Positions 165 through 58,738 of a stretch of 64,000 nt of DNA are shown here, in pieces. Source of the stretch: Trachythela sp. YZ-2020 (lineage: Eukaryota > Cnidaria > Anthozoa > Malacalcyonacea > Clavulariidae). How positions within the stretch are numbered: the stretch's first letter is position 1; each line of letters starts with the position of its first letter. A program made the translations under genes and the position numbers. Where the stretch lies: NCBI GenBank assembly GCA_016169945.1, contig JADLSH010000367.1, positions 2,542,001-2,606,000 on the forward strand, in the 5' to 3' direction. A model generated the notes under the pieces. That model made no database searches. It was not told the origin of the DNA and saw only the letters and a list, made by a program, of their open reading frames with translations.

Positions 165-1031
165 CTACCGGCCTGTAGTTCCTCGAGACGCCCCTTGGAA
201 GTTTAAAGGTGCATAGTTTCCACAATCGCGAGCAAAATGTCCATATCTTTGACATTCATAGCACCGTACATTGGAATGGTTTTGACGTTGGCGTGGACTG
301 CGGCAATCACGAGCAAGGTGACCTGGTTTTCCACATTGAAAACATGTAGCTTTCGATCGCTGTCGATTTATAGGTTGGTTAACTGCGGCGGCATAGAACT
401 GTTCTGAAGTGGCCATCTGATCTTCGAGCGCCTTCTGTCGAGTGGCAAGTTCGTTCATGAGACCCACGAGTTGGTCCATGTCGGCGTTCGGTTTGGGTGT
501 TGCGGAGCTGGCGTTGGTTGTAAAGGATGAGTCGTGTTCTTCAATCGCACGATAACGCTGAACAAAGCCTAGCATTTCGTTCACGTTTGGTGTGGGGTTA
601 TGAGCCAAAAGCTTCCCTCTCATTGGTTTGGGTAGACCACGCATAAATTGGCGCGACAAAAGTGCAGATGTGGCTTCGTCACCGAGCGTTGGGTCGGCTT
701 TTTCCAGAAGTTGTTCCAGCTCCCACTTGAAAACTGATGGGTCTTCACCGCTCCGAAGCATTCGGGCCTCAAACTTGGCATAATAATTTTCCCTCTCGAC
801 TGGTGGGCACAGGGCTTGTTTCAAGCGCTTCGTCGCGGCGTCGTATGTGGCTCTCTCCTCGGCAGGAATGGCGTAGAAATGACTAGACGCGCGGCCACGG
901 AGAAACGCAGGTAATTTCTTGATCTTGTCGTCGTCTTTCCAACCATTGGCTACAGCACATGCATCAAACTCTCTTAGCCAGGCGACAACGTCGTCTCCGT
1001 CGAATTTTGTTGGCAGAATGCTCGTTGACAT
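165..1031 (-). CDS. Gag of a Ty3/gypsy-like LTR retrotransposon
   Basis: This is an uninterrupted ORF of 288 aa. The ATG at 1031 is preferred because the longer open frame (to 1094) runs back into the primer-binding site and LTR. The N-terminal two thirds look like a retrotransposon gag capsid domain (FDGDDVVAWLREF near the start; PKPMRGKLL later). The C-terminus carries two CCHC zinc knuckles, CFQCGKPGHLARDC and CYECQRYGHFARDC, which bind nucleic acid. The protein would form the particle that packages element RNA. The intact frame and adjacent LTR suggest a relatively young insertion, in contrast to the broken BEL/Pao pol it interrupts. Confidence 0.85.
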   Translation of the reverse strand: MSTSILPTKFDGDDVVAWLREFDACAVANGWKDDDKIKKLPAFLRGRASSHFYAIPAEERATYDAATKRLKQALCPPVERENYYAKFEARMLRSGEDPSVFKWELEQLLEKADPTLGDEATSALLSRQFMRGLPKPMRGKLLAHNPTPNVNEMLGFVQRYRAIEEHDSSFTTNASSATPKPNADMDQLVGLMNELATRQKALEDQMATSEQFYAAAVNQPINRQRSKATCFQCGKPGHLARDCRSPRQRQNHSNVRCYECQRYGHFARDCGNYAPLNFQGASRGTTGR

Positions 1032-1064
1032 GATTTCGTTTTTTGTTTTACCGCTGCCACCAAT

Positions 1065-1256
1065 TGTAGCGTGCCGATACTCAATAGACTTCACGAACTC
1101 GGTTTTAAACTCTTTATTTCCCAGTTATATTACAGAGGCTATAGCCTTTCATGTGCGACCCTCTCGCTCTGAGGTGCGCGTTCACTCCCTCGTCATCGGC
1201 TCAAGTCATTGTCTAGATCATCCACTGTCCGGAAACCACATCGGTTTCACATTACA
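1065..1256 (-). repeat. 5' LTR and primer site of the gypsy-like element
   Basis: On the minus strand this 192-bp stretch begins TGTA and ends TACA and contains an AATAAA-type signal (GGGAAATAAAGAG). It is followed at once by TTGGTGGCAGCGG, a typical gypsy-type primer-binding site, and then by gag. Its outer edge abuts BEL/Pao coding sequence at 1257, which sets the insertion point. The matching 3' LTR is outside the window, so the boundary is inferred from the TG...CA ends and the junction. Confidence 0.65.
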
Positions 1257-3835
1257 TATTGTATACACGTTACAAGTGGGGGACAAACCATCGAACAAGC
1301 CACAGAACGAAAGGGTAAAGCGAGTGAGATTTTCGAGGACGCCAAGTTTGTTCTTCACAAATGGTGCTCCAATGCTCCGGAACTGGAAGACGACAGTAAC
1401 AAAGTTCTGAGTGACGAGACAACCCTTGCTAAGAAGCAGTTAGGAACAGAACCAAGCGAGACGAAGGTACTTGGGCTGCCATGGGACAGAAGTACAGACA
1501 CTTTGTCTGTAAAGCTTCCAACTTGCGAGTCTATCCCAACCAAAAGAAATGTGTTGAGCCACCTAGCACAAGTGTACGATCCATAGGGGTTAGTGTCTCC
1601 ATTGGTTCTAGAGGGTAAATTTATCTATCGTGATATCTGCAATCAAAAGATGCCGTGGGATCATGAATTGAGTCCACCTCTGGCAAAGAAATGGTTCTGC
1701 TGGAAGAATTCCCTGCCGATTGATGTAACAGCATCACGGTCAGTTGCGAATTATAAAGAGCCTATTAAGAGTTGTGAATTGCACGCATTTGGAGACGCCA
1801 GTACGAAAGGAGTTGGTGCTGTCTATTCTGTGATCTGTCAACCCTCAGGAACGACTCAGCGTCTGGTAGCAGCCAAAGCTCGTTTGGCTAAACAAGGTCT
1901 AATAGTTCCACGCCTTGAACTTGTTTCTGCCCATATGGCGATGAATCTGGCAGTTAACGTGAAGAATACCCTTGGTGATCTACCTAGTCCCCTGATTTAG
2001 GTATGGCTAGACAGCACAGTGGCGCTCCACTGGATCTGTGGGAACGGTGAATATAAGCAATTCGTGAGTAACAGAGTCAACAAGATTCATCAGCATCCAG
2101 AGATCAGTTGGAGACATGTTCCCACCTCTCAAAATCCCGCAGATTTAGCAAGTAGAGGGGGTAAACCGACCTCGTTGTGGTGGAACGGACCAGTTTGGCT
2201 GCCCGAGAGTGATAAGTGGCCTCCCAACCTGGTAACTAACCCAATCTTAACGTCCGAAGTCGAAGCTAAGGTAATTAGGGAAGTAGTTACGATGACGAAG
2301 AAATCCTGTGATCAAAGTTTAGATGTGCTGCTAGAGAAGTACAACCTGCAGAAAGCGCTGAGAATCCTAGCATGGATGTCAAGATTAATTCAAAAGTGCA
2401 AAAAGAAGGAAACTCGAAACGGTCCTCTAACGGTTGAGGAAATCAAGGAAGTAAAGAGAAAATGGATCAAGCTTATTCAAGAAGAGGATCAGCTATCACC
2501 CAACTTCGATCAGATTCGCGGGCAACTTAACTTACAAGTGAATGATCAGGAGCTCTTAGAGTGTCGTGGCAGGATCGAAGGACGTTATCCCACATACCAC
2601 CAAACGCTGTTTTTACACGAAAGCTAATAGAGAAGATTCATTGTGAAACCCTACACGGCGGTGTTGGACTTACTATGTCAGCTGTTCGAGAGGAATACTG
2701 GATACCGAAGCTTAGAAGTATTGTTAAGTCTGTAAGAAGTGGTTGCTCAGGCTGTAAGGGATTCCAAGCAACGGCCCTAGCTGTTCCTCCACCTGGTCAA
2801 CTACCAGAAGATCGCACTAAGGGAGCTATCCCCTTCGAAGTTAATGGCGTGGACTTTGCTGGGCCAATTTATTATCGAAAGGCATCAAAGAGTCGAGGTA
2901 AATCCTATTTAGCCTTGTTTTCCTGCGGGTTAATAAGAGCTGTCCACCTCGAGCTTCTTCCAAATCTAGAGACAGGGACGTTCCTCCTTGCCCTCAAGAG
3001 ATTTATTGCTCGACGCGGTCGGCCCCGGAAAATCTATTCTGATAACGGCGGTACCTTCGTAAAGGCTGCAAAATGGCTCGAAAGAATCGGAAGAGATGAG
3101 AAGTTGCAAGGCTATTTGCTAAACCACGAGATGCAATGGCAATTAAATCTTTCGCGCGCCCCTTGGTGGGGCGGACACTTCGAACGACTTATAGGAGTGG
3201 TCAAACAAGCGATGCACAAGACAATCGGAAGGGCAACACTGATGTGGAGCGAGTTAAACGAAGTGATCCTTGACGTCGAAGTTCAAGTAAACCGGAGACC
3301 TTTGAGCTATGTTGAAGACGACATAACCCTTCCTGTTTTGACACCTTCATCATACCTGTTCCAAAGACCAAACCTTCTACCAGAGCAACAACCATGGCGT
3401 GAGGAAGATAAAAGTCTTCGAAAGAGATTGAAGTACCTAAAGACCTGCAAGGATGCATTATGGAAATGCTGGTCCAAAGAATACTTGACTGCCTTAAGAG
3501 AACGGCATAATCTTACCCATAATCGTAAGAAATTCGAGGTCGCAGTTGGAGAAGTCGTTATAGTAAAGTCTGACGAGAAGAATCGTGGTAAATGGCCATT
3601 AGCGATCGTACGAGAAGTATTTCCCGGTCGTGATGGAATAGTGCGAGCCGTCAGACTACAAACCGGAACTGGATTTCTAGAGAGACCGGTGCAACACTTA
3701 TTTCCCTTGGAACTGTCTTGCAGTAAGTCAAATTCGAAACGAGAAGATCTTAACCCGGAAGCTCAAACATTCCGACCCAAGCGAGTTGCGGCGATCGAAG
3801 CAGAACAAAGAATTAAAGAAATGGTGAAAGAGTGA
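1257..3835 (+). pseudogene. BEL/Pao retrotransposon pol, 5' truncated and broken
   Basis: Domains in order: the end of the reverse transcriptase (GGQTIEQATERKGKASEIF, LHKW), the Pao A17-type region (LGLPWDRS, LAQVYDP), RNase H (HAFGDAST, PRLELVSAH, WLDSTVALHWI), an integrase zinc domain, the integrase core with its three acidic positions (GVDFAGP, SDNGGTF, PWWGGHFERL) and a C-terminal DUF5641-like domain. In-frame TAG stops lie at 1584-1586 and 1998-2000, and a frameshift near 2560-2627 moves reading to the ORF ending at 3835. The RT catalytic box is lost and the upstream part is missing where the gypsy LTR begins. The copy is not functional. Confidence 0.88.
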
Positions 3836-9100: not shown

Positions 9101-12100
9101 AGAATGATTTATTAACATTCATAGATGCTAATTTTTCTACAAGGATGTTATGGTCCACCAAATCAAAAGCCTTTCGGAAGTCAACTGATAAATAGGGCAT
9201 GGACAACTTTTCTAGCAGACTGAGAGTTATCCGTGGCATTGTACCAGTTCTGTGTCATAAATATCAGAGCGGAAACGGTAGACTGGCCACGGGTGAATGC
9301 ATGTTCTTTACTTTCAAATCCGAGGTATTTAGTTGAAGTTGTAGTTTATATATATATTTATAATATAACATTTATAGTACGCGCGTGCTGATTGGTCGAG
9401 AAGCGTGTTTCTATAACTATAGAAACACGGAAATTTTCCCGCCAAAATTTAAAATCATAAAATAATCAAATTTAATGCGAATTATAAAATCATTGAAAAG
9501 GGCAAAACAACTATATCATCTGAGTTAGCTGGTGTCGCAGTTTTTAAATTTAGCGAGCTAAGGAATAAAGACGAGATTGGTCGAGGGGGCTATTCGACCG
9601 TCTTGACGGCAGAATTACCGAACGGTGGAGCGCAAACTCATCAAAGAAGCGAGATTTCTGAATAATATTCCCTATTCTGTGCCTCATCCGTGTTTTATCC
9701 CCCCATCCGTGTTTTATCCCCTCATCTGTGTTTTATCCCCTCATCCGTGTTTTATCCCCCCATCCGTGTTTTATCCCCTCATCCGTGTAGCCAAATTTGA
9801 AGGGTGTGACTAAAAGGAGAGTTAAATCGGAGAGTTAAGATTTCGGAGAGTTAAGTTCGAGCCACGCCCACTTTTGTGAACGACCACGCCCACTTTATTA
9901 ACTCTCCCGATGGTATATTTGAACTAACGTCAGAGAGTTAATTTTGATTTAACTCTATTGCTTAAAAAAATAAAAAGGAAGAGAGAGTTAACTTTGTCGT
10001 AACTCTCAAAATGCCAAAAAATGCTAAGCGAGAGTGTTAAGTTAGTTTTTCGAATAAAATGGTGATATTGACGTGACAATAGTGATAAAATACTAATAGG
10101 CAACATCCGAGTCAAACAAAGAGAGCATAGTATATATAAACAATTTCGCTACCCATTAATCTTTCAGACCGCCCGTAAAAATTCCCAACCTCTTTCTCGA
10201 CTGGTATCTCAATAAATATTTACAATTATAAAACATGCTATGCCTCTTTTGAAAGCCTATATATCGAATTACCTTTCAGCATTATATTCGACTTTTCAAC
10301 AAACAGGCATCGCATTTGTAATAAATTAGCAAAATAAGCAAAACAATTCAATATCGTTAGATAAGTTATGTGTCGTCGTTAGATAAGTTATGACAATTAT
10401 GAATCGCTTGTGATCATCCTGACAAGATATCCGGTATGGGACACCATTTTATTCGAAAAACTAACTTAACTCTCTCGCTTAGCATTTTTGGGCATTTTGA
10501 GAGTTACGACAAAGTTAACTCTCTCTTCCTTTTTATTTCTTTAAGCAATAGAGTTAAATCAAAATTAACTCTCTGACGTTAATTCAAATATACCATCGGG
10601 AGAGTTAAGAAAGTGGGCGTGGTCGTTCACAAAAGTGGGCGTGGCTCGAACTTAACTCTCCGAAATCTTAACTCTCCGATTTAACTCTCCAATTTTAACT
10701 CTCCTTTTAGTCGTTCCCAAATTTGAAGCCCAAGATAAGGCTTGGTCCAATAGTTTTTCAGAAATGGATGGGTAGAAATCGACAATGTCAAACGAAATAA
10801 AACTGTGTCTGTCCTTATCTTTTATATTGCCAAACCACTGAATAACTTGTTTTGTGTTCCTCCATTGATTTAAATTCTCAGTTTCAAATTAGAATTAATT
10901 TTGTCCAAAATAACTTTGCTTATTTTTCCGGATTCGCTTTTAGCGGGATTAATTAATCGGCATTTTGGATTGTTTTCGATATTTTCTTTGTGATATAAAT
11001 GCTTCGCGTTTTTCATTTTTTCAATTCTGTCGCCGATCCCTAAATTGTTCGAAATGTTTTTTAGTTCTGAATCAATTTCATCTATAGTGTCCTCGGATCC
11101 ATGCTTATATGTTTTTGTGATGTTGTCATGTAAGAGCTTGTTGTATGCGTCGAGCGAGGTTAGAATAAAGCTTATTTGTGAGATATTTATTTAAAAGCTT
11201 ATTTATTTAAAATCTCTCCTTTTCAATACCGGAATTTCATGGATAAAAAAGATAGCGAGAGTTTGTTTGACGTTACCATGGGCAGTTTCGACGGCGCGGA
11301 AATTTGTGAGTTAGTAGGCCTTTTCATTTTAAACCACCTGAGTAAAAAATTTGGCAAAGAAAGCATCGGCCTATATAGAGATGACGGTTTGGCTATTATA
11401 AAAAGTAAATCAGCACGTTTAGCAGACAAAACAAGGAAAGACCTCCACAAAATTTTCGAGCAGTTTGACCTAAAAATTACCGCCGAATCAAATTTACGCA
11501 TAGTAAACTTTTTAGATGTAACTTTCGACCATAACAATGGAAAACATAGACCCTATAGGAAGCCCAATGACGATCCACTATACATAAATATGCACTCACC
11601 GAGCATCACAAGGCAACTACCGAGCATCACAAGGCAACTACCTGCATCAATTAACAAGCGCATCGCACTTCTTTCATCAGATGAGCAAACTTTTCAGGAA
11701 TCTGCACCCATATATCAGAACGCACTTAGGCATAGCAACTTTAATCATGAACTTAGCTACACTCAGCACACACCGCAACAACAACGCAGGAATAGGCAAC
11801 GCAACATCATTTGGTTCAACCCACCATTTAGCAAGAGTGTTAGCACAAACATAGGACGTAATTTCCTTAGTCTAATTGACAAACATTTTCCACCGCACCA
11901 CAAGCTCCATACATTTTTTAACAGAAATACAGTTAAAGTAAGTTACAGCTGCATGAACAATGTCAAGTCAGTAACACTAAACACAATGCACGCATATCTA
12001 GGAATAACAAGCCACAGGATAGGGACACTACCAATTGCAGTTGTGGAGAAAACACCATTTGCCCGCTTCAAAAACAATGCATGACTAGGGACATAGTATA

Positions 12101-13584
12101 CAAAGCACCAGTCACAGTAAGCAACACCAACACGATCAAAAATTACATTGGCATGACTGCAACCACATTCAAAGAGCGATTGGCCAACCACACTAAATCT
12201 TTTCAGCATATGAAAAAGCATGCAAATGACACGGAATTTTCGAAATATGTTTGGACATTGAAAGAAAACAATAAGGATTTCAGTATTAATTGGCAAATTT
12301 TAAAACATTATATTTCGTACACGGGAGGATCAAAACGATGCAATTTATGTTTAGAAGAAAAATTTTGTATTTTGAAAGAAAAAAACAAGAATTGTTTACT
12401 CAACAAAAGAGCTGAAATAATTTCACGGTGTCGTCATCGTAACAAATAGAGACCTTACGATGTAGGACGGCAACACGAACGACGACGGCTAAAACAAACT
12501 CCTTCAAATAAATCAATTAAATAAAAGTTGTCGTGTATTATCAATCGTATGAATTCACTTCAGTTTGAGGAAGTTGAGATAACGGCCTTTTGGTTTAGAA
12601 GATTTCTACTTCAGTACTGAGCCAATTTGCTGAGTACCACTTCTCGCTTCTTGAAATGCAGACGTTGAACACAATACGTAAAAATCTGTAGTTTACCGTT
12701 GTAAACAGAGCGAGGATGACGTCTAAAATTCCCGTGGGATTTTAATTATTCATTTCTATTCTAAAATACTATAAATTTCATTGTATTTATAGCCGTCGTC
12801 GTCACGTTGCCGTCTTAAATTTACGAAATGAAGTTCGCTTACTTAAGGTCTCTAGTTTCGCGTAAACAACGCAAGCAAAGCCATGAATGCACACATTGTC
12901 TCCCACATATACCCCCACGCTCCGGCAGGAAGCATATAAGCGGTCATTTCTTTCGATACTTGTCACTGCCTGATGATTCTTTTACAGATGAAACAGCCTG
13001 TTGCAGACAAGTTTTGAGGTAAGCGAATATATATATATATATATAGTAAAATCTGCAGACATGCATGTTTCGCCGTTCAACGGCTCGTCAGTGCAGCTTG
13101 TAAAGCAGTCTAGATGCGAGTGACTTCATATTTATACACCATACTCTTGCCCTCACCAAGCGCATGTGGTACAATACTCAGACACATGCGCATCCAGATA
13201 TATATATATACGTGTAGGTTTAGGTCTACGAAACGCAAAGAGTGCTCGACAACATATAGTTAGAGCAAATTATAGGTAGTGAGGTAAGCGAAAATATATA
13301 TATATATATATATATACGTGTATAGGTTTAGGTCTACGAAACGCAAAGAGTGCTCGACAACATATAGTTAGAGCGAATTATAGATTTTCGCTATATATAT
13401 ATTGAGCACTCTGGCCTCAAGACACTTCACGCATGTCTGGATGCGCATGTGTCTGAGTATTGTACCACATGCGCTTGGTGAGGGCAAGAGTATGGTGTAT
13501 AAATACGAAGTCACTCGCATCTAGACTGCGTTACAAGCTGCACTGACGAGCCGTTGAACGGCGAAACATGCATGTCTGCAGATT

Positions 13585-13618
<34 letters not shown>

Positions 13619-16600
13619 TTCATGCCTCTTGCAAGGCAAACATCAGGCGATAGAGTTTTTATATGCATCTACTCAAAGTCGTTTGAGTGAGATTGAAACA
13701 CTACCTCAAAAGTATAAAATTAAGCCCGATTGACATTTCGAGCTAATAAGGGCCTTGGTCCTGAAGACAGAAGTAGATATACAGGCTTTAGCATTTGGCT
13801 TCAGTCGAAACTTTCATCTTCTTCAAGTATAGTACTAGTGCTATAAACTAAACTAAACTTGCAACATTTTACTTCCTGCATATTTACTGGACTACGAGCT
13901 CCCTGGGGTACATTAATTATCCGTGCCCAATTTAAAAAGTGCCTACCAATGTGATTCCTTTTCCAATTGAATCCGTTCTCATCTCCACAAATTCTAAAAT
14001 TCTGCTAATTAGAAATGCCTAAAAAAGATAAAAGTACATTAAATTCTATGGCTTATAAAACTCCACGCATCTAAATTCTTCAATGCATGTATTTCCAAAG
14101 TTATGGAAGAACTGGTGGTGGAATGAAACCTGGAAGATAGATCCCAAGCAATTTGGTCGGGGTTCGTCTATACCACCGCATTGACATGTTTCATAAGGCT
14201 TTCGACAGAAGTGACTTAAATGTATTGATCACCAAGCTGATTGACATGGGGAGGTCTCTCATTCCATGGTTATATGATTGTTTATCTGCTGCAGGCAGAG
14301 TCAAACTTGGAGGGCCAGTATCTGAGTGCGCGTGTAAATGTTGGAGTCCCTCAGGGAACAAAATTAGGCCCAATTCGTTTCTTGGGAATGGTATAAACGA
14401 TCTAAAAACGTTAAACTCAGAGCACTGGATGTATATGTAGACGATATTACCATCTCAGAAGCCTTACCAAACATAGTCAATCTACGATGCAATCCGAATT
14501 AGATCATATAGCTGGGCCGGCCAAAATCATATGAAACTTAATCCAAAAAAGAATGCAAAGAATTAAGAGTGCATTTCTAACTTGATCTGCCTGACTTACA
14601 ACAAATACAGCAATCATGTCTTACTATAGGCCTAAAACATGCATAAAAAGGAAATAGATAAAATACGTTCGATATTTATAAGTTTACATGTTGATCCAAA
14701 CAGGCTTCCAAATACATGCACTTGACTTAAAATAGCGCCAATGTTTTGTGTTTTGAACCATATTAGGAAACAAAACTGGATGAACAGCAAAATGGGATAC
14801 ACTGACCTTGGCCTAGTCCGATTCCATTTCTAAAGCCGGGCACACACGCCATGATTTTTGTCCGCCGATTTATGGTTTAGATGCATGTTAAAACGAGAAA
14901 CATAACCATATGCACCTAAACCATAAATCGGCCAACAGTAAATAATTCGGTGTGTGGACTGTGCGCCTGGCTTAACAAAAAACTAGTCCATGTAAAAGTA
15001 ATTCAAACATACCGGTCCAACGAACGTAAGGAATAACGCCAGTGTATAAAATAGTCCACTAACAATGACTTTTGTTCTCACAGTTCTAAAAATCGCTTTT
15101 CCAATTGAAGCATCTTTTATTCCTTTCTTTTTTACTTCTTCCGCCCAGAATCGGTGAAATCTTCTGTAATTTACTGCCGCTGAATAATTCCGAGGTAGTT
15201 TGCCCAGGTCGGAAATCTCCAGAGGTTTCTTAAAACCTTTCATCAGAATTGGCGTACACCATGATAAGAATATAAACGAAATAAAACCACAGTCGTCTAA
15301 TGGGTGTTTAGCAGGGTGGCTGTTTCAGTAAAAAAGAAAATCAGGTTAATCGCAATGAAAATAGATATATTCAATCTATGTTATATAATTGTTTTTAAAA
15401 TTTATCACACACTTGTATCTTAATGTAACTATTTTCCTTTGTATATGACGTCATTACGTGTCACTGGGTGTCATTTTTTAAACTTTAACCGTTACATTCA
15501 GAGTTTATTTACTATTTACTGGGTTTTTTTGAAAAGAACCTGTCTTTGGCTCGATACGACCAGAAATAAAAATATATAGTTTATGCCTGTTTTGAAAAGA
15601 TTAAACTAAACTATTATACGGTTTTTCGGTAAACAGTATATCAGAAGCGATTTTTGTTGTTATTGTACTATTGCGCATGCGCGTTACGTCGACATCTAAT
15701 AATAAATTAGCACGGCGCTAAATCAAATCGCGCGTGCCTGTAATTAAATCCCGTTTAATTTTCCAGAAACAGTCGCTTCGCGCGAACAATTAAATATAAT
15801 TCGCCTAGAGGAAAACGTACTGAAATGTTGTCACGCAACAAATCGTCGGCAAACACCAACCGTCAAAGAATTGTTTTCTACTGTCTTTCCTAATAATCAT
15901 GACTGTAACCCAAATGTAACACTTGTTTATTCGGTAATACACAGAGCTCTTGTACATTTCGCAGTACTTTACTTTCTATTAGATATTTCTAGTTTATTTG
16001 GCAAACCTATCCATGAAAACAGCCTGGACGTAAAGGAAACATTAAGTGTTAAAACCCAAACACCTATAATTGTTAAAAAACTGCCAAAAATGTACAACAT
16101 TTTCGAAATGAAAAATATCTGTTCAAGTTCTATTTTTCTCACCGTCACCGTTGTGTATAGTCAACATGCTTTCAAAATTTTCTTTATATACGTATCTAAT
16201 TTGTGCTAATGTGATGGTTTACATGTTTAATAAGTTTCAAATGACGCGAGCTGGCGAGCAAATAGATCACGCATGTCACTTTTAGTATAAAAGAACGTGT
16301 GAATGGTAGCCTACGTCATAGACCTCTATGAGGCTAGTGAATGGAAACTAAGTCACAGATTAGAGAGATACAGATGTCCGTAAGGTGTTTTCTACTGCGC
16401 ATGACTTGCGACCATGTTCTTAGCGTCCATGTTATAGTCTCTATTCTTTGTGAATCGAAAGTTTTGCCAAATAAATAAACGTGTTTATCTCACTTCATAA
16501 ACATTCGTGACCCAGTTTTGAGACAGTCTTGAGAGAGGTCTGAACGTTAAACCCTGCATTAAATTCGAATAAAATAGTACAAATCATCTGTTAAAAGTAC

Positions 16601-27900: not shown

Positions 27901-30900
27901 AACAAAATGGCAAAATACTTGGTAAGTGAGGATCTTAAAGACGACTGTTTATTTATGAGTAATAAAGTTAAGAAATTATTGTTTGTGTGACTTTGAACCG
28001 ATTGCCGAATATCGTTAATATAGTTACTAAAGCGCAAAAATTGTAAAGATTATGAAAAATTAAGAAACTTTTGTCCGTTTGACACAGGTTTTTTGTGTCT
28101 TTTGGTGCCAATTTAGGTGTCCGCGTCCGCTTAAAGGCCGGGCTCCACTTGCACGTACGTACGCACAATTGCACGTACGTACGTGTTTATACTTTCGTGA
28201 AATGTGATTGGTTAAAAACTTGACGGCCGCACAGAAAGTAGAATACAGTTCTGTCATACATACAAAAAGTTAGCCCCGACGGTCAAGATTAGCGATCATT
28301 TTCGAGTCACAGAGCATGCGCAAAATCGGCCGCGCTGGCCGTACGTGCAAGTGCTCTGTGACCCGAAAATGATCGCTAATCTTGACCGTCGCGGCTAACT
28401 TTTTGTACGTATGACAGTAGAACTGTATTCTACTTTCTGTGCGGCCGTCAGGTTTTTAACCAATCACATTTCACGAAAGTATAAACACGTACGTGCGTGC
28501 AATTGTGCGTACGTACGTGTAAGTGGAGGCCGGCCTTAATAGAGGTTTCATTAATAGGATTTATATGAGATTCAATTTGGGACTTTACAAAGTGTCCCCT
28601 TAATACAGGGTGTCCGCTTTATGCAGAACTGCTTAATACAGGTTTGACTGTACTAACATGATTACCTGTAAACCGTTAAAGGCAGGAACAAAGTAGACTC
28701 CATTGCAGTCTAGGAAGAATATAGTAAATTATTGGAAAATAATGAATAATTCATTAATTAACGATAAAGTTGTTTGTGTCACATGAATACCCTGTTAGTA
28801 GAAATAAAGTTCGATTTCGTCAGAAAAGATTATGAGATTTACATCACTGCTGAATGACTATATGTGATCATGGAAGGCAATTGTGATAACGTTTAGGCTC
28901 AATATTAACAACCTGAATTTTAATACAAACTTAATCTTAATCCTAACTCTAATCCTAACTCTAATCCTAACCCTGACCTCAACCCTGATCCTAACCCTAA
29001 TCCTAACTCTAATCCTAACCCTGACCTCAACCCTGACCCTAATCCTAACGCTAATCCTTAATCCTAATCCTAACGTCAACCCTAATCCTAACCTCAACCC
29101 TGATCCTAATCCTAACGCTAATCCTTAATCCTAATCCTAACGTCAACCCTGATCCTAATCCTAACCTCAACCCTGATCCTAACCCTAACGCTAATCCTTA
29201 ATCCTAACCCTAATCCTAACGTCAACCCTGATCCTAATCCTAATCCTAACCTCAACCCTGATCCTAACCCTAATCCTAACGCTAATCCTTAATCCTAACG
29301 TCAACCCTGATCCTAACCCTAATCCTAACCTCAACCCTTATCCTAATCCTAATCCTAACGTCAACCCTGATCCTAACCCTAATCTCAACCCTGATCCTAA
29401 CGCTAATCCTTAATCCTAATCCTAACTTCAACCCTGATCCTAATCCTAACCTCAACCCTGATCCTAATCCTATTCCTAACGCTAATCCTAATCCTTACCC
29501 TAATCTTAACGTCAACCCTGATCTTATTCCTAACGCTAATCCTTAATCCTAACCCTAATCCTTACGACCTAATTTCGGGATAGTAATATGGAAAGTCACC
29601 CAACGTTCAGCTACCTTTAACAGAGCTTGCAATCTTAGATGTTTCTGCCACGTTGTCTTTCTGGTAAAAACCTGAAATAAGACAATATATGTACATCGTC
29701 ATTATATTGAGATATTGAGTCATTGAGATATTGTCAGTTTTTCGTAATAGAAATACGTGCTCCGAATAAAATACTTGGATTTGTATGATCACCGACTTTT
29801 TAAGGAGCTGTTACGCAAGCAATTTTTCACTTATTATCGGAGAGGCTGATAAAAAAATGCTCTAACTGTGCCAACCTGGTTGTAATTGTGCCAAGAAAAT
29901 CTCAAATAAATGTACTGTTTTAAATATTCTTACCTATTTCACCCGCCCATTCAATAGCACTCCCAGTCCCCGCAGCATTACCCTCGGCCAGATACGTCAC
30001 TTCCGATCCTATTTTCCACGCAACTAGTGGATATAATCCTGAAATTCAAACTACAGTAATTAGAATGTGAAGTAATAATACTAATACAAGTAAAGTGATT
30101 ATTTAGTTGTTGAAGCAAAGTGGCAGCGCAAATTGTGTTAAATACTAAGCCACTCGAAATCTGGCTTCTTCGTCCTTCAGTCAATTCTGCTCTAAACATT
30201 CACGTTTATTTTGTCTTACAGTCGATTTCAACTAACTTTGCGAAATTCAAAAGTTCATAATGAATTCGCAAGCAAGTTTGTAAACAAAGCCTCTGATTGT
30301 GTGCTAGAGAAAAAGCAACCAATCAAATGCTCAGTTTACAAACCGGTTCTGAATTTCATTATCAATCAATCAATCAATAAACTTTATTTAAAGAGGGTTA
30401 AAAATATTGTACATAGCCAATATACCTGGTAAGTCAAAAACTTATCTTCCCCAGGGCCCTCGCTGTTTAAGTTAAAACTACAAGTTAAATACAACATGTA
30501 GCATAGAATAGAATATTATTAGCATTAGAGATGCACTCTCTCTGTTTGAACTTAATGTGTTCCATATCTTTACACTGCTATATCCAAACGTATCCATATA
30601 TATATTTGTTTATGCTTTCCTGGAGGTAAGTACAAGTCGTTTGCAGAACTTGATCTAGTTGTCCTTGCATGGACTTGTCTAACAAACGTAAACATATTTC
30701 TCATATACTCCGGACACAAATGATTAAGACTTTTGTAGACCATAATGGCTTTACGATACTCAATACGATCCACGATGGATCCATTTCAGTGTCAAAAACA
30801 TATCCTTACTAGGATAACGATTATCTGTGATATCTAAAATTACCCGGGCTGCTCTCTTTTGCGTTAAAATGATCTTCTTTACATGAGGTGAACCACCCCA

Positions 30901-45727: not shown

Positions 45728-47022
45728 TCTATTTGCATTCCTATTTACATAGATGGTATTGTTTGGTATTGCATACAGTACAACAATAAAAATGAAATTA
45801 AGTTAAAGTAGCTTTAATCGTATTAACTAAATATCATAACCTTACTTCATTGTATCTACAACAGTCAACAGCAAAATAATGCAAAATTAGCTCATGAAAC
45901 ATTCCAAATTTCAACCAAAATCTTATCATAAACGATCTTACAAATGCCCTGATCATTTATTACATTTCGTACTTTAAGGGGTAGGGCGTTTATTGCAGGG
46001 GGATTTTTCTCAGTTTTACGCTTCATAAACAACACTTTCTAGCAGTTTGCATGACTTCAACTTTTATAGTCCATTATATACTACATTACACTTATTCTCC
46101 AACACTAATAATTCAACAAGCGTTTATTACATGTAAATGTTTATATGCCCCTGTATGGAAGGTGCTTTTGTTAGGTAAGCGGCGTAAGGGTAGAGAGAGG
46201 CGTCTATTGGTAAACTCTGCGCGTTTATTGAATCATTTACGGTATTTAAGGCTTAGCATTGTCAATGTAGCAAAGAAAATGAGAAAAAGGTGCCATATCG
46301 TTCGCTGTTTTTATCCAAATGATGTAATTAGCTGGAAAATCGTAATTTATGTTTTTGTAATTATAAGACAAAAAATCCTCATTTACTTCCTTTGTTTGTG
46401 AATATTTTAGAGGATCTTTGGGGAAGTGACAGTGATGAGAGTGACACATGTCAAACGGAAGTAAACGTACAAAAGACAACTCAGGAAGAAAAACCGAATA
46501 TATTGAAATACTTACCTACAGTATATTGTAAAGATGCGCAAATTGATAGCAGTTTTAAAAGGAATGACGTTTCCACCAATGAAGAACAACAAGATACTGA
46601 GAAGCTATTTCCCTCACCAAAGAGACTTAGAAAGTCAAAAGACATTATGGACCCAGGCACTGCAGCAAGAACTATTAATTCAACAAGAAACGAAGTCCAA
46701 TTTACTGAATGGTTTGAAAATAAAGTTGATGCATTTATTCAGCATCGTAATGAAGGAAAGAACGTACTAAATAAAGAAAATTTGTCGTCAATGTCTTGTC
46801 GATGCTCTTCCTCTTGCAAACCTTCAGATTCCGAGGAGGAATCTACATTAATACCTCAGTTCAGTGAATGGTTCAATGAAGAGATTAAAAAGATGGATGA
46901 TAAGGAGTTACCCGCGCGCAGCTAACATATTACAATCACCTGCAAGGGATGTATCACAAAACAATTCTACATTCACACAATGGTTCGAGGCGAATATAGA
47001 AAATATTAAAAGTCCAAGTTAG
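45249..47022 (+). CDS. AUNIP-like protein gene, two exons, 3' frameshift
   Basis: Exon 1 is 45249-45600 (ATG at 45249, two TGA codons just upstream). Exon 2 starts at 46411 (G|AG junction, giving YEDLWGSDSDESD). As read, 288 aa end at 46925. The N-terminus EEGCGKWL and a PIP-box-like QRTMSQFL recall vertebrate AUNIP (EEACGVWL and an analogous Q..I..FF motif), a DNA-end resection and Aurora-A/ninein partner. Three similar motifs follow: FTEWFENKVDAFI, FSEWFNEEIKKM and, beyond the stop in another frame, FTQWFEANIENI, ending at a TAG at 47020-47022. The third motif suggests a one-base frameshift around 46915. The family call is a similarity judgement, not proof. Confidence 0.55.
45651..45727. 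repeat. (AAC)n microsatellite
   Basis: About 25 copies of AAC lie in the intron of the AUNIP-like gene. Confidence 0.95.
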
Positions 47023-57730: not shown

Positions 57731-58738
57731 TCTTACGACTTAGTTTCTTGCCATATTCATTAAATTAGTACATAACCCAACCATCAATTACATGAATTTG
57801 TGAAAGACGAACAGCGATTGAATTTTTACCAAGACAAAAGCTGGTAAAGAAGAAGTTTGTAGTTACAAAAACACAATCACTGCTTCGTTTTTCTTCGTTT
57901 GGACCATTGCCCGCGCGCACTGCAGGCCAGTGAGCTCTATATATATATATCTGGAGTGAGAACTTATGTCCAAAAAGTGAAGCCAAAGATGGCGGAAATT
58001 GACGTCCAGTGCCAATCCCTTTCTATTGTTTTCGACCGCGCGGTTTGCACAAGCCGGCAAGGAGTGTGCCGAAATTTCGTGTTTTTACTCCGATGTAAAC
58101 AATAACATCATGATTTTATGAACTAATAACTTGATTAGCGATGCGATCTGTTAGTATAAACTGGAATTAGCTAGAAAAATGGTATGAAAACTGTTTATGA
58201 CCTTCATGAGTTTGGACGTCAATTGCCGCCATCTTTGGCTTCACTTGGCCTATTGGCCGAACATTAGAAGTTCTTACTCCAGATATATATATGGAGCTCA
58301 CTGCTGCAGGCTCGTATAAAGAACCTGGGTCCCAGAATAGAATAACGTGCAACTTTCAGTAATTCACTAATTCAGCATAGATTTTCTACATTTTTGCTGC
58401 TGTTATTTATTTTTTTTCTTTCATTGTAATTCACAAGTTTGCTTTTTGTCAATACAATAATGATAAAAACATTAAATATTGTTGATAGCTTGTGTAAACA
58501 CACTGTTAAATATCAACGATATTACACGAAGTAATCTATCTTCAAACACCGCTGACTCATCACATAAAGAAATTATTTTGATTCAAGTGAAAATTTATTT
58601 GTAAACAAATCTACTCGTATTGTCAGATTTGTAAATCGTAATGACAATGACATTAAAATTCAAAACTGGTAAAAATATGGGCAAAAGTGAATAATTTTTT
58701 TAATTTATGATTATAAAATCAAGTGGAGAGGTTTAGAA
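57731..58738. promoter_or_regulatory. Shared intergenic region of NKAP and ANKRD39
   Basis: The start codons of the two genes face away from each other 1008 bp apart, so both promoters must lie here. No core promoter motif is clear. Its middle is occupied by an inverted-repeat element (57919-58312). Confidence 0.55.
57919..58312. mobile_element. Inverted-repeat element between NKAP and ANKRD39
   Basis: The left arm (CCAGTGAGCTCTATATATAT, CTGGAGTGAGAACTT, AGTGAAGCCAAAGATGGCGG, about 57919-58012) recurs inverted at about 58214-58312. The arms are about 90 bp with small gaps. No coding sequence or clear target duplication. Confidence 0.65.

Follow-up and report, generated by a model that had tools for sequence, protein, structure and literature searches.

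The question raised by this locus is why two copies of what appears to be one hammerhead ribozyme lie close together, in opposite orientation, in the genome of an anthozoan. The window, as we call the whole stretch of DNA that was analysed, comprises 64,000 nucleotides of a contig from Trachythela sp. YZ-2020 (JADLSH010000367.1, positions 2,542,001 to 2,606,000), and all coordinates are counted from its first letter. An initial annotation, made from the letters alone, had proposed that the hammerheads end inverted units of about 145 bp, representing either a rearranged retrozyme or a distinct two-strand self-cleaving element. We argue below that two copies from a family of animal non-LTR retrozymes, or derivatives of such copies, lie here joined head to head amid (TA)n runs, a reading to which we assign a probability of about 0.68.

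Two predicted type I hammerheads on opposite strands

The two 44-nt sequences were found at the positions first reported for them, and they are identical.

13538..13581, plus strand: predicted type I hammerhead ribozyme (descriptor match; Rfam hammerhead models below threshold; palindromic stem III and dimer co-fold)
13053..13096, minus strand: predicted type I hammerhead ribozyme, the same 44 nt (descriptor match; Rfam hammerhead models below threshold)

Each copy contains the CTGACGA/GAAA core, a 5-bp stem I (with an internal loop, by eye, in the plus copy), a stem II of 4 bp, or 5 when an extra U-A is counted, and a stem III of 2 bp plus A15.1-U16.1 that is closed by a TGCA loop. The predicted GTC cleavage site ends at C13576 in the plus copy and at the base opposite 13058 in the minus copy. 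These are the parts that had been listed in the initial annotation, namely the core, the 4-bp stem II, the short stem III with its tetraloop, the GTC and the 5-bp stem I. The motif had also been called minimal, a label that does not quite fit: Penelope hammerheads, the published minimal ones, are described in PMC7761336 as lacking helix III or tertiary contacts, whereas in the hammerhead of this locus a helix III of 2 bp is retained.

The window was scanned with a strict descriptor of the type I motif, which requires, in this order, CTGANGA, stem II (≥3 bp), GAAA, stem III (≥2 bp, with a small loop), UH and stem I (≥4 bp). In the 64 kb, both strands included, it matched the two 44-nt copies only. 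Any match was seen in 1 of 100 windows generated by a first-order Markov model and in none of 400 generated by a second-order model. A loose regular expression for the hammerhead was not significant by itself, giving 5 matches in the window versus 3.75 expected. A loose core pattern matched 5 stretches in viral contigs and 19 in genome contigs; none of the 24 had the hammerhead helices, and we therefore took all of them as chance matches. A weak similarity at 57924-57955 is mostly a TA run.

A covariance-model search had been suggested as a check. At the gathering thresholds of Rfam, no match was obtained in the whole window, which, taken literally, is the outcome that the initial annotation had named as a refutation. 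When matches with E values up to 10 were admitted for 12801-13900, 23 appeared, every one under its cut-off; the top two were mir-297 (35 and 28.5 bits), which is TA-rich, and four were hammerhead models. RAGATH-1-hammerhead scored 22.9 and 22.6 bits (cut-off 56.3), with the core and the cleavage site correctly placed in the alignments, and Hammerhead_3 scored 19.2 bits twice (cut-off 48.5; scores only, without a displayed alignment). Hammerhead_1 was absent among the matches on 12801-13900 in this search, which drops overlapping members of a clan. Because the sub-threshold alignments and the descriptor with its null models agree on the motif, we do not take the threshold result as a refutation. 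Judged by sequence, both copies are type I hammerheads, beyond what chance would give, and they would be expected to self-cleave.

The predicted stability of the lone 44-mer is not unusual (z −1.06; 27 of 200 shuffled sequences were equally stable), and the fold depends on its surroundings. With 68 nt of context, stems I and II of the plus hammerhead form with a probability of about 0.75; in the 187-nt unit, the probability of stem I falls to 0.23. In its own flanks, the minus hammerhead forms stem II and not stem I (probability 0.007), a result that counts against our reading of the locus.

Stem III and its loop lie inside the palindrome ACATGCATGT, and two 44-mers co-fold at −34.9 kcal/mol, versus −11.6 kcal/mol for one alone. 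The co-fold is a double hammerhead in which both cores are open, a 10-bp stem III is shared and two 5-bp stems I are formed. Descriptor and co-fold together show a conserved core, three helices, an NUH site and a ribozyme open at stem I. The energy gained by the dimer, −11.7 kcal/mol, was matched by 34 of 200 shuffled 44-mers and by 16 of 200 random pieces of the window and is not unusual, so that it is the shape of the co-fold, and not its energy, that lends support to a dimer. According to PMC3088659, a palindromic loop III with possible dimer action occurs in the metazoan repeat hammerheads of newt and Aedes and was suggested for Nematostella; dimer action is known in newt, and it was suggested for the Aedes and Nematostella hammerheads, which stayed uncleaved when tried singly.

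Unit anatomy, the junction and the likeness to retrozymes

The units to which the hammerheads belong are made up of the following parts.

13433..13581, plus strand: retrozyme-like body of 149 nt (hairpin and hammerhead), 98% identical to the minus body, with 3 differences
13053..13201, minus strand: retrozyme-like body of 149 nt, from comparison with the plus body
13384..13432, plus strand: 5′ spacer preceding the plus body, like the minus spacer at its beginning and in a GAGCACTCT block and different elsewhere (by eye)
13198..13298, minus strand: 5′ spacer of the complete minus unit, about 100 bp, with internal (TA)n (repeat search and alignment)
13306..13383, minus strand: truncated repeat of the minus spacer, in tandem with the first and without a hammerhead body after it, 94% identical to 13198-13275
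13587..13615, no strand: (TA)n run of 29 bases bordering the plus unit on its 3′ side (sequence)
13027..13045, no strand: (TA)n run of 19 bases bordering the minus unit on its 3′ side (sequence)
13498..13505, plus strand: TATAAATA box-like sequence of putative function, upstream of the plus hammerhead and within the hairpin
13129..13136, minus strand: TATAAATA box-like sequence of putative function, minus copy, within the hairpin
13347..13412, no strand: imperfect palindrome at the head-to-head junction, with a 9-nt loop at 13378-13386 (DNA fold)

The 98 nt upstream of each hammerhead are predicted to form one long hairpin. For the plus body (13434-13531) its energy is −42.8 kcal/mol (z −4.89), which none of 200 shuffled sequences equalled, and for the minus body (13104-13201) it is −38.3 kcal/mol (z −3.63; 2 of 200 equally good). 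GC content lies between 0.39 and 0.497 over five stretches of the locus, and no stop-free stretch in 13016-13616 exceeds 51 aa, which characterizes the locus as non-coding. Three hypothetical circular monomers were predicted to be 60-70% paired, a figure computed without a control.

The initial annotation was right about the inversion and too low on size. The inverted repeat proper has arms of 175 nt that are 97% identical, and it continues imperfectly to the 9-nt loop. A global alignment of the arms gave 192 identical columns out of 241 aligned, and it did not align the 5′ spacers sensibly. Because it missed their likeness, that likeness rests on a reading by eye and on the fold of the junction. 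As DNA, 13346-13413 folds at −15.1 kcal/mol (z −5.67), and none of 200 shuffled sequences folded equally well; for the inner junction alone (13365-13397) z was −2.98, with 3 of 200.

The description as two units had overlooked the additional copy of the spacer on the minus side. Furthermore, the beginning of the spacer, at 13281-13291, recurs at 13016-13026, beyond the (TA)n run that follows the minus body. Given the truncated second spacer without a body and this repeated start, the minus side resembles the remnant of a tandem array in which one body, situated between (TA)n runs, may have been lost. Partial tandem repetition is confined to the spacer, and the descriptor matches each strand of the window once. 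A direct tandem of hammerheads, in repeats of 150-450 bp, was looked for on both strands of the window and was not found, which counts against the assignment to retrozymes.

Animal retrozymes, as described in PMC7229834, are repeats of 150-450 bp with a GC content below 50%, self-paired circles and type I hammerheads; they are reported from stony corals, jellyfish and anemones, where they are expressed as linear and circular RNAs of 170-400 nt. Our comparison was made with these published descriptions, not by sequence. The locus resembles the metazoan non-LTR retrozymes of the coral Acropora millepora and other hosts (PMC7229834) in its type I hammerhead, short unit, GC content below 50%, non-coding nature, self-paired body, cnidarian host and the probable Penelope-like element nearby. 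It differs from them in that its copies are head to head and not in direct tandem, and in the (TA)n between modules. With the satellite retrozymes of newt and axolotl (same source) it shares a weak helix III, whereas those are tandem repeats of about 330-350 bp in vertebrate hosts. One of the two axolotl types has a palindromic tetraloop and the other a 2-bp stem with a tetraloop, and both work better as dimers (PMC7229834).

The observed basis for our reading is the sequence, the predicted folds (which include a highly self-paired RNA), the dimer co-fold and the inverted and partly tandem anatomy. From these we infer membership of the family, self-cleavage, circular RNA and a Penelope step. 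The best reading is that the locus is a rearranged, retrozyme-derived pair, as one suggestion of the initial annotation had it and as the unit anatomy supports. Because the direct tandem of hammerheads that defines retrozymes was not found in the window, we call it a variant of retrozymes and not a proven member. We found no description of inverted retrozymes in the literature accessible to us, outside which most subscription papers lie. The main text of PMC7229834 contains neither "inverted" nor "head-to-head"; in the parts seen of PMC11722881 and PMC6431247, "inverted repeat" refers to back-splicing and viroids and to other transposons, respectively.

How the inverted pair may have arisen

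One could envision that the locus is a non-autonomous DNA transposon, or foldback element, that was inserted at TA and carries the hammerhead by chance in its long terminal inverted repeats. The 175-nt arms at 97% and the TA runs on the flanks would suit such an element, as would the foldback element with 249-nt arms nearby, at 9816-10690. This account does not predict the additional tandem spacer on the left side, nor the repeat of the spacer start at 13016-13026, beyond the arm; moreover, the 5′ spacers of the arms differ, both by eye and in the alignment, and a hammerhead with a self-paired body is the anatomy of a retrozyme. We consider a DNA transposon improbable.

Slightly less probable still is a second scenario, in which two retrozymes were inserted independently, in opposite directions, into one (TA)n microsatellite. 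It would account for the differing 5′ spacers and for the (TA)n around and inside both units. The imperfect palindrome that runs through the junction to the 9-nt loop (z −5.67), however, is not expected from two chance insertions.

The third scenario concerns the RNA. In a through-transcript of the whole locus, plus or minus, all 44 bases of the hammerhead pair with the antisense arm, and the transcript adopts a rod-like fold (−386.7 kcal/mol for plus and −379.1 kcal/mol for minus). Some viroids carry one hammerhead per strand that is hidden by pairing with its complement in a rod, and the locus could accordingly be imagined as a viroid-like element whose rod-shaped RNA, about 580 nt long, has one hammerhead in each polarity and replicates by a symmetric rolling circle. 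Against this stand the single unit in the window, without a tandem copy, and the fact that two stricter exact patterns taken from the hammerhead matched no stretch in viral contigs, although such patterns would miss diverged relatives. We regard a viroid-like element as very improbable, and the related proposal of a distinct two-strand self-cleaving element is not supported, each strand having one hammerhead that the antisense arm masks in through-transcripts. A false palindrome produced by an error of sequencing or joining is just as improbable: inverted repeats are a recognised kind of assembly error, but here the two arms show 3 mismatches over the 149 nt of the body, and they match neither in their spacers nor in how many spacer copies they hold.

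If the pair is derived from retrozymes, each unit would begin with an AT-rich spacer, continue with a body that pairs strongly with itself and close, on its 3′ side, with a type I hammerhead. In an ordinary tandem array of such units, transcripts would cut themselves at each hammerhead, either singly or paired via the palindromic stem III, and the released monomers would be circularised and then copied back by a helper reverse transcriptase. With one hammerhead per strand, excision of a monomer in cis is impossible at this locus, and since that hammerhead is also masked by the antisense arm in a through-transcript, the locus probably releases no monomer. The antisense arm would be missing from a transcript that began within the locus, such as one starting after the TATAAATA sequence at 13498 (plus) or 13129-13136 (minus). 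Retrozymes seem to be without promoters, according to the review PMC7761336.

The inversion itself might be explained by a Penelope-type reverse transcriptase that started from a palindrome in its own product or switched template. In PMC7229834, Penelope elements are called a strong candidate for the helper of animal retrozymes on circumstantial grounds, the mobilising enzyme being unproven. Penelope elements of the rotifer Adineta vaga form mostly head-to-head inverted repeats with palindromes at the junctions, attributed there to self-priming, and simple AT-rich sequence is reported as their favoured target (PMC3846280); the locus resembles them in its head-to-head inverted repeat, palindromic junction and AT-rich surroundings. 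Unlike Penelope-like elements, its unit contains no reverse transcriptase frame, the longest stop-free stretch being the 51 aa given above. In PMC11167929, unprocessed RNA is the main insertion substrate of an Anolis Penelope element, and the presumptive hammerhead site coincided with neither the start nor the end of any read, which counts against our explanation.

Taken on its own, a Penelope-type reverse transcription step behind the inversion seems to us possible, at somewhat less than an even chance. It is a fit and not a proof, given the single locus, the differing spacers and the Anolis data. Since the two units carry different 5′ spacers, the locus is not fully accounted for by one cDNA simply folding back, and any target-site duplication would be hidden by the (TA)n at both ends. 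A stronger proposal is that a single event, in which a Penelope-type reverse transcriptase used retrozyme RNA as template, gave rise to the pair, and that inverted retrozyme pairs with palindromic junctions recur in genomes as a signature of the enzyme that mobilises animal retrozymes; we hold it to be rather unlikely. Inverted pairs with Penelope-style junctions would offer a straightforward genomic check on the identity of this enzyme.

Sequences neighbouring the locus

A candidate for the kind of helper discussed above lies upstream of the locus.

11182..12449, plus strand: two overlapping open frames, 11182-12084 and 11937-12449, a candidate kind of helper whose tie to the element is putative

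We read these frames as probable remains of a Penelope-like element, namely the tail of its reverse transcriptase with a GIY-YIG endonuclease, a reading that Pfam did not support. The piece at 11182-12084 matched 4636 proteins at E≤0.001, with a best identity of 84% among the matches listed; the two that carried an organism name among the 120 listed were from the sea cucumber Apostichopus japonicus (58 and 56% identity), not from an anthozoan. Pfam gave no family above its cut-off for either frame and one weak match to Dam (E 0.2); this was the sole comparison for the piece at 11937-12449. A comparison with the PDB, made for the piece at 11182-12084 only, returned no match.

Near the end of the Penelope-like frame, a foldback repeat seems, by eye, to have been inserted at 12420-12860; it is absent from our repeat search, which had a minimum of 25 nt. 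The arms of the foldback element at 9816-10690 are 98% complementary and lie 377 nt apart. Two sequences that face each other on the flanks of the locus, at 12969-13007 (plus) and 13618-13650 (minus), are CTGATGA/GAAAC-like and by eye resemble decayed Penelope hammerheads. At 14130-14480 (plus), the sequence resembles, again by eye, a decayed non-LTR reverse transcriptase frame.

Pieces of an LTR retrotransposon, presumably of the Bel/Pao type, occupy 165-3835 and include a zinc-knuckle ORF at 165-1124 (minus) and an integrase with DUF5641 at 2546-3835 (plus), both assigned by Pfam. The integrase ORF had at least 1402 matches at E≤1e-50, and all 10 of those named by organism among the 120 listed were from anthozoans (Dendronephthya, 4; Actinostola, 3; Montipora, 2; Oculina, 1), as would be likely for an anthozoan host. 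No tRNA genes were found in the window. A host-like ORF at 46332-46925 had 7 protein matches, one of them named, as "hypothetical protein". Finally, about 630 bp at 28932-29562 consist of degenerate 6-bp repeats (TAATCC unit) and lie within a stretch that has a strong GC skew (−0.252).
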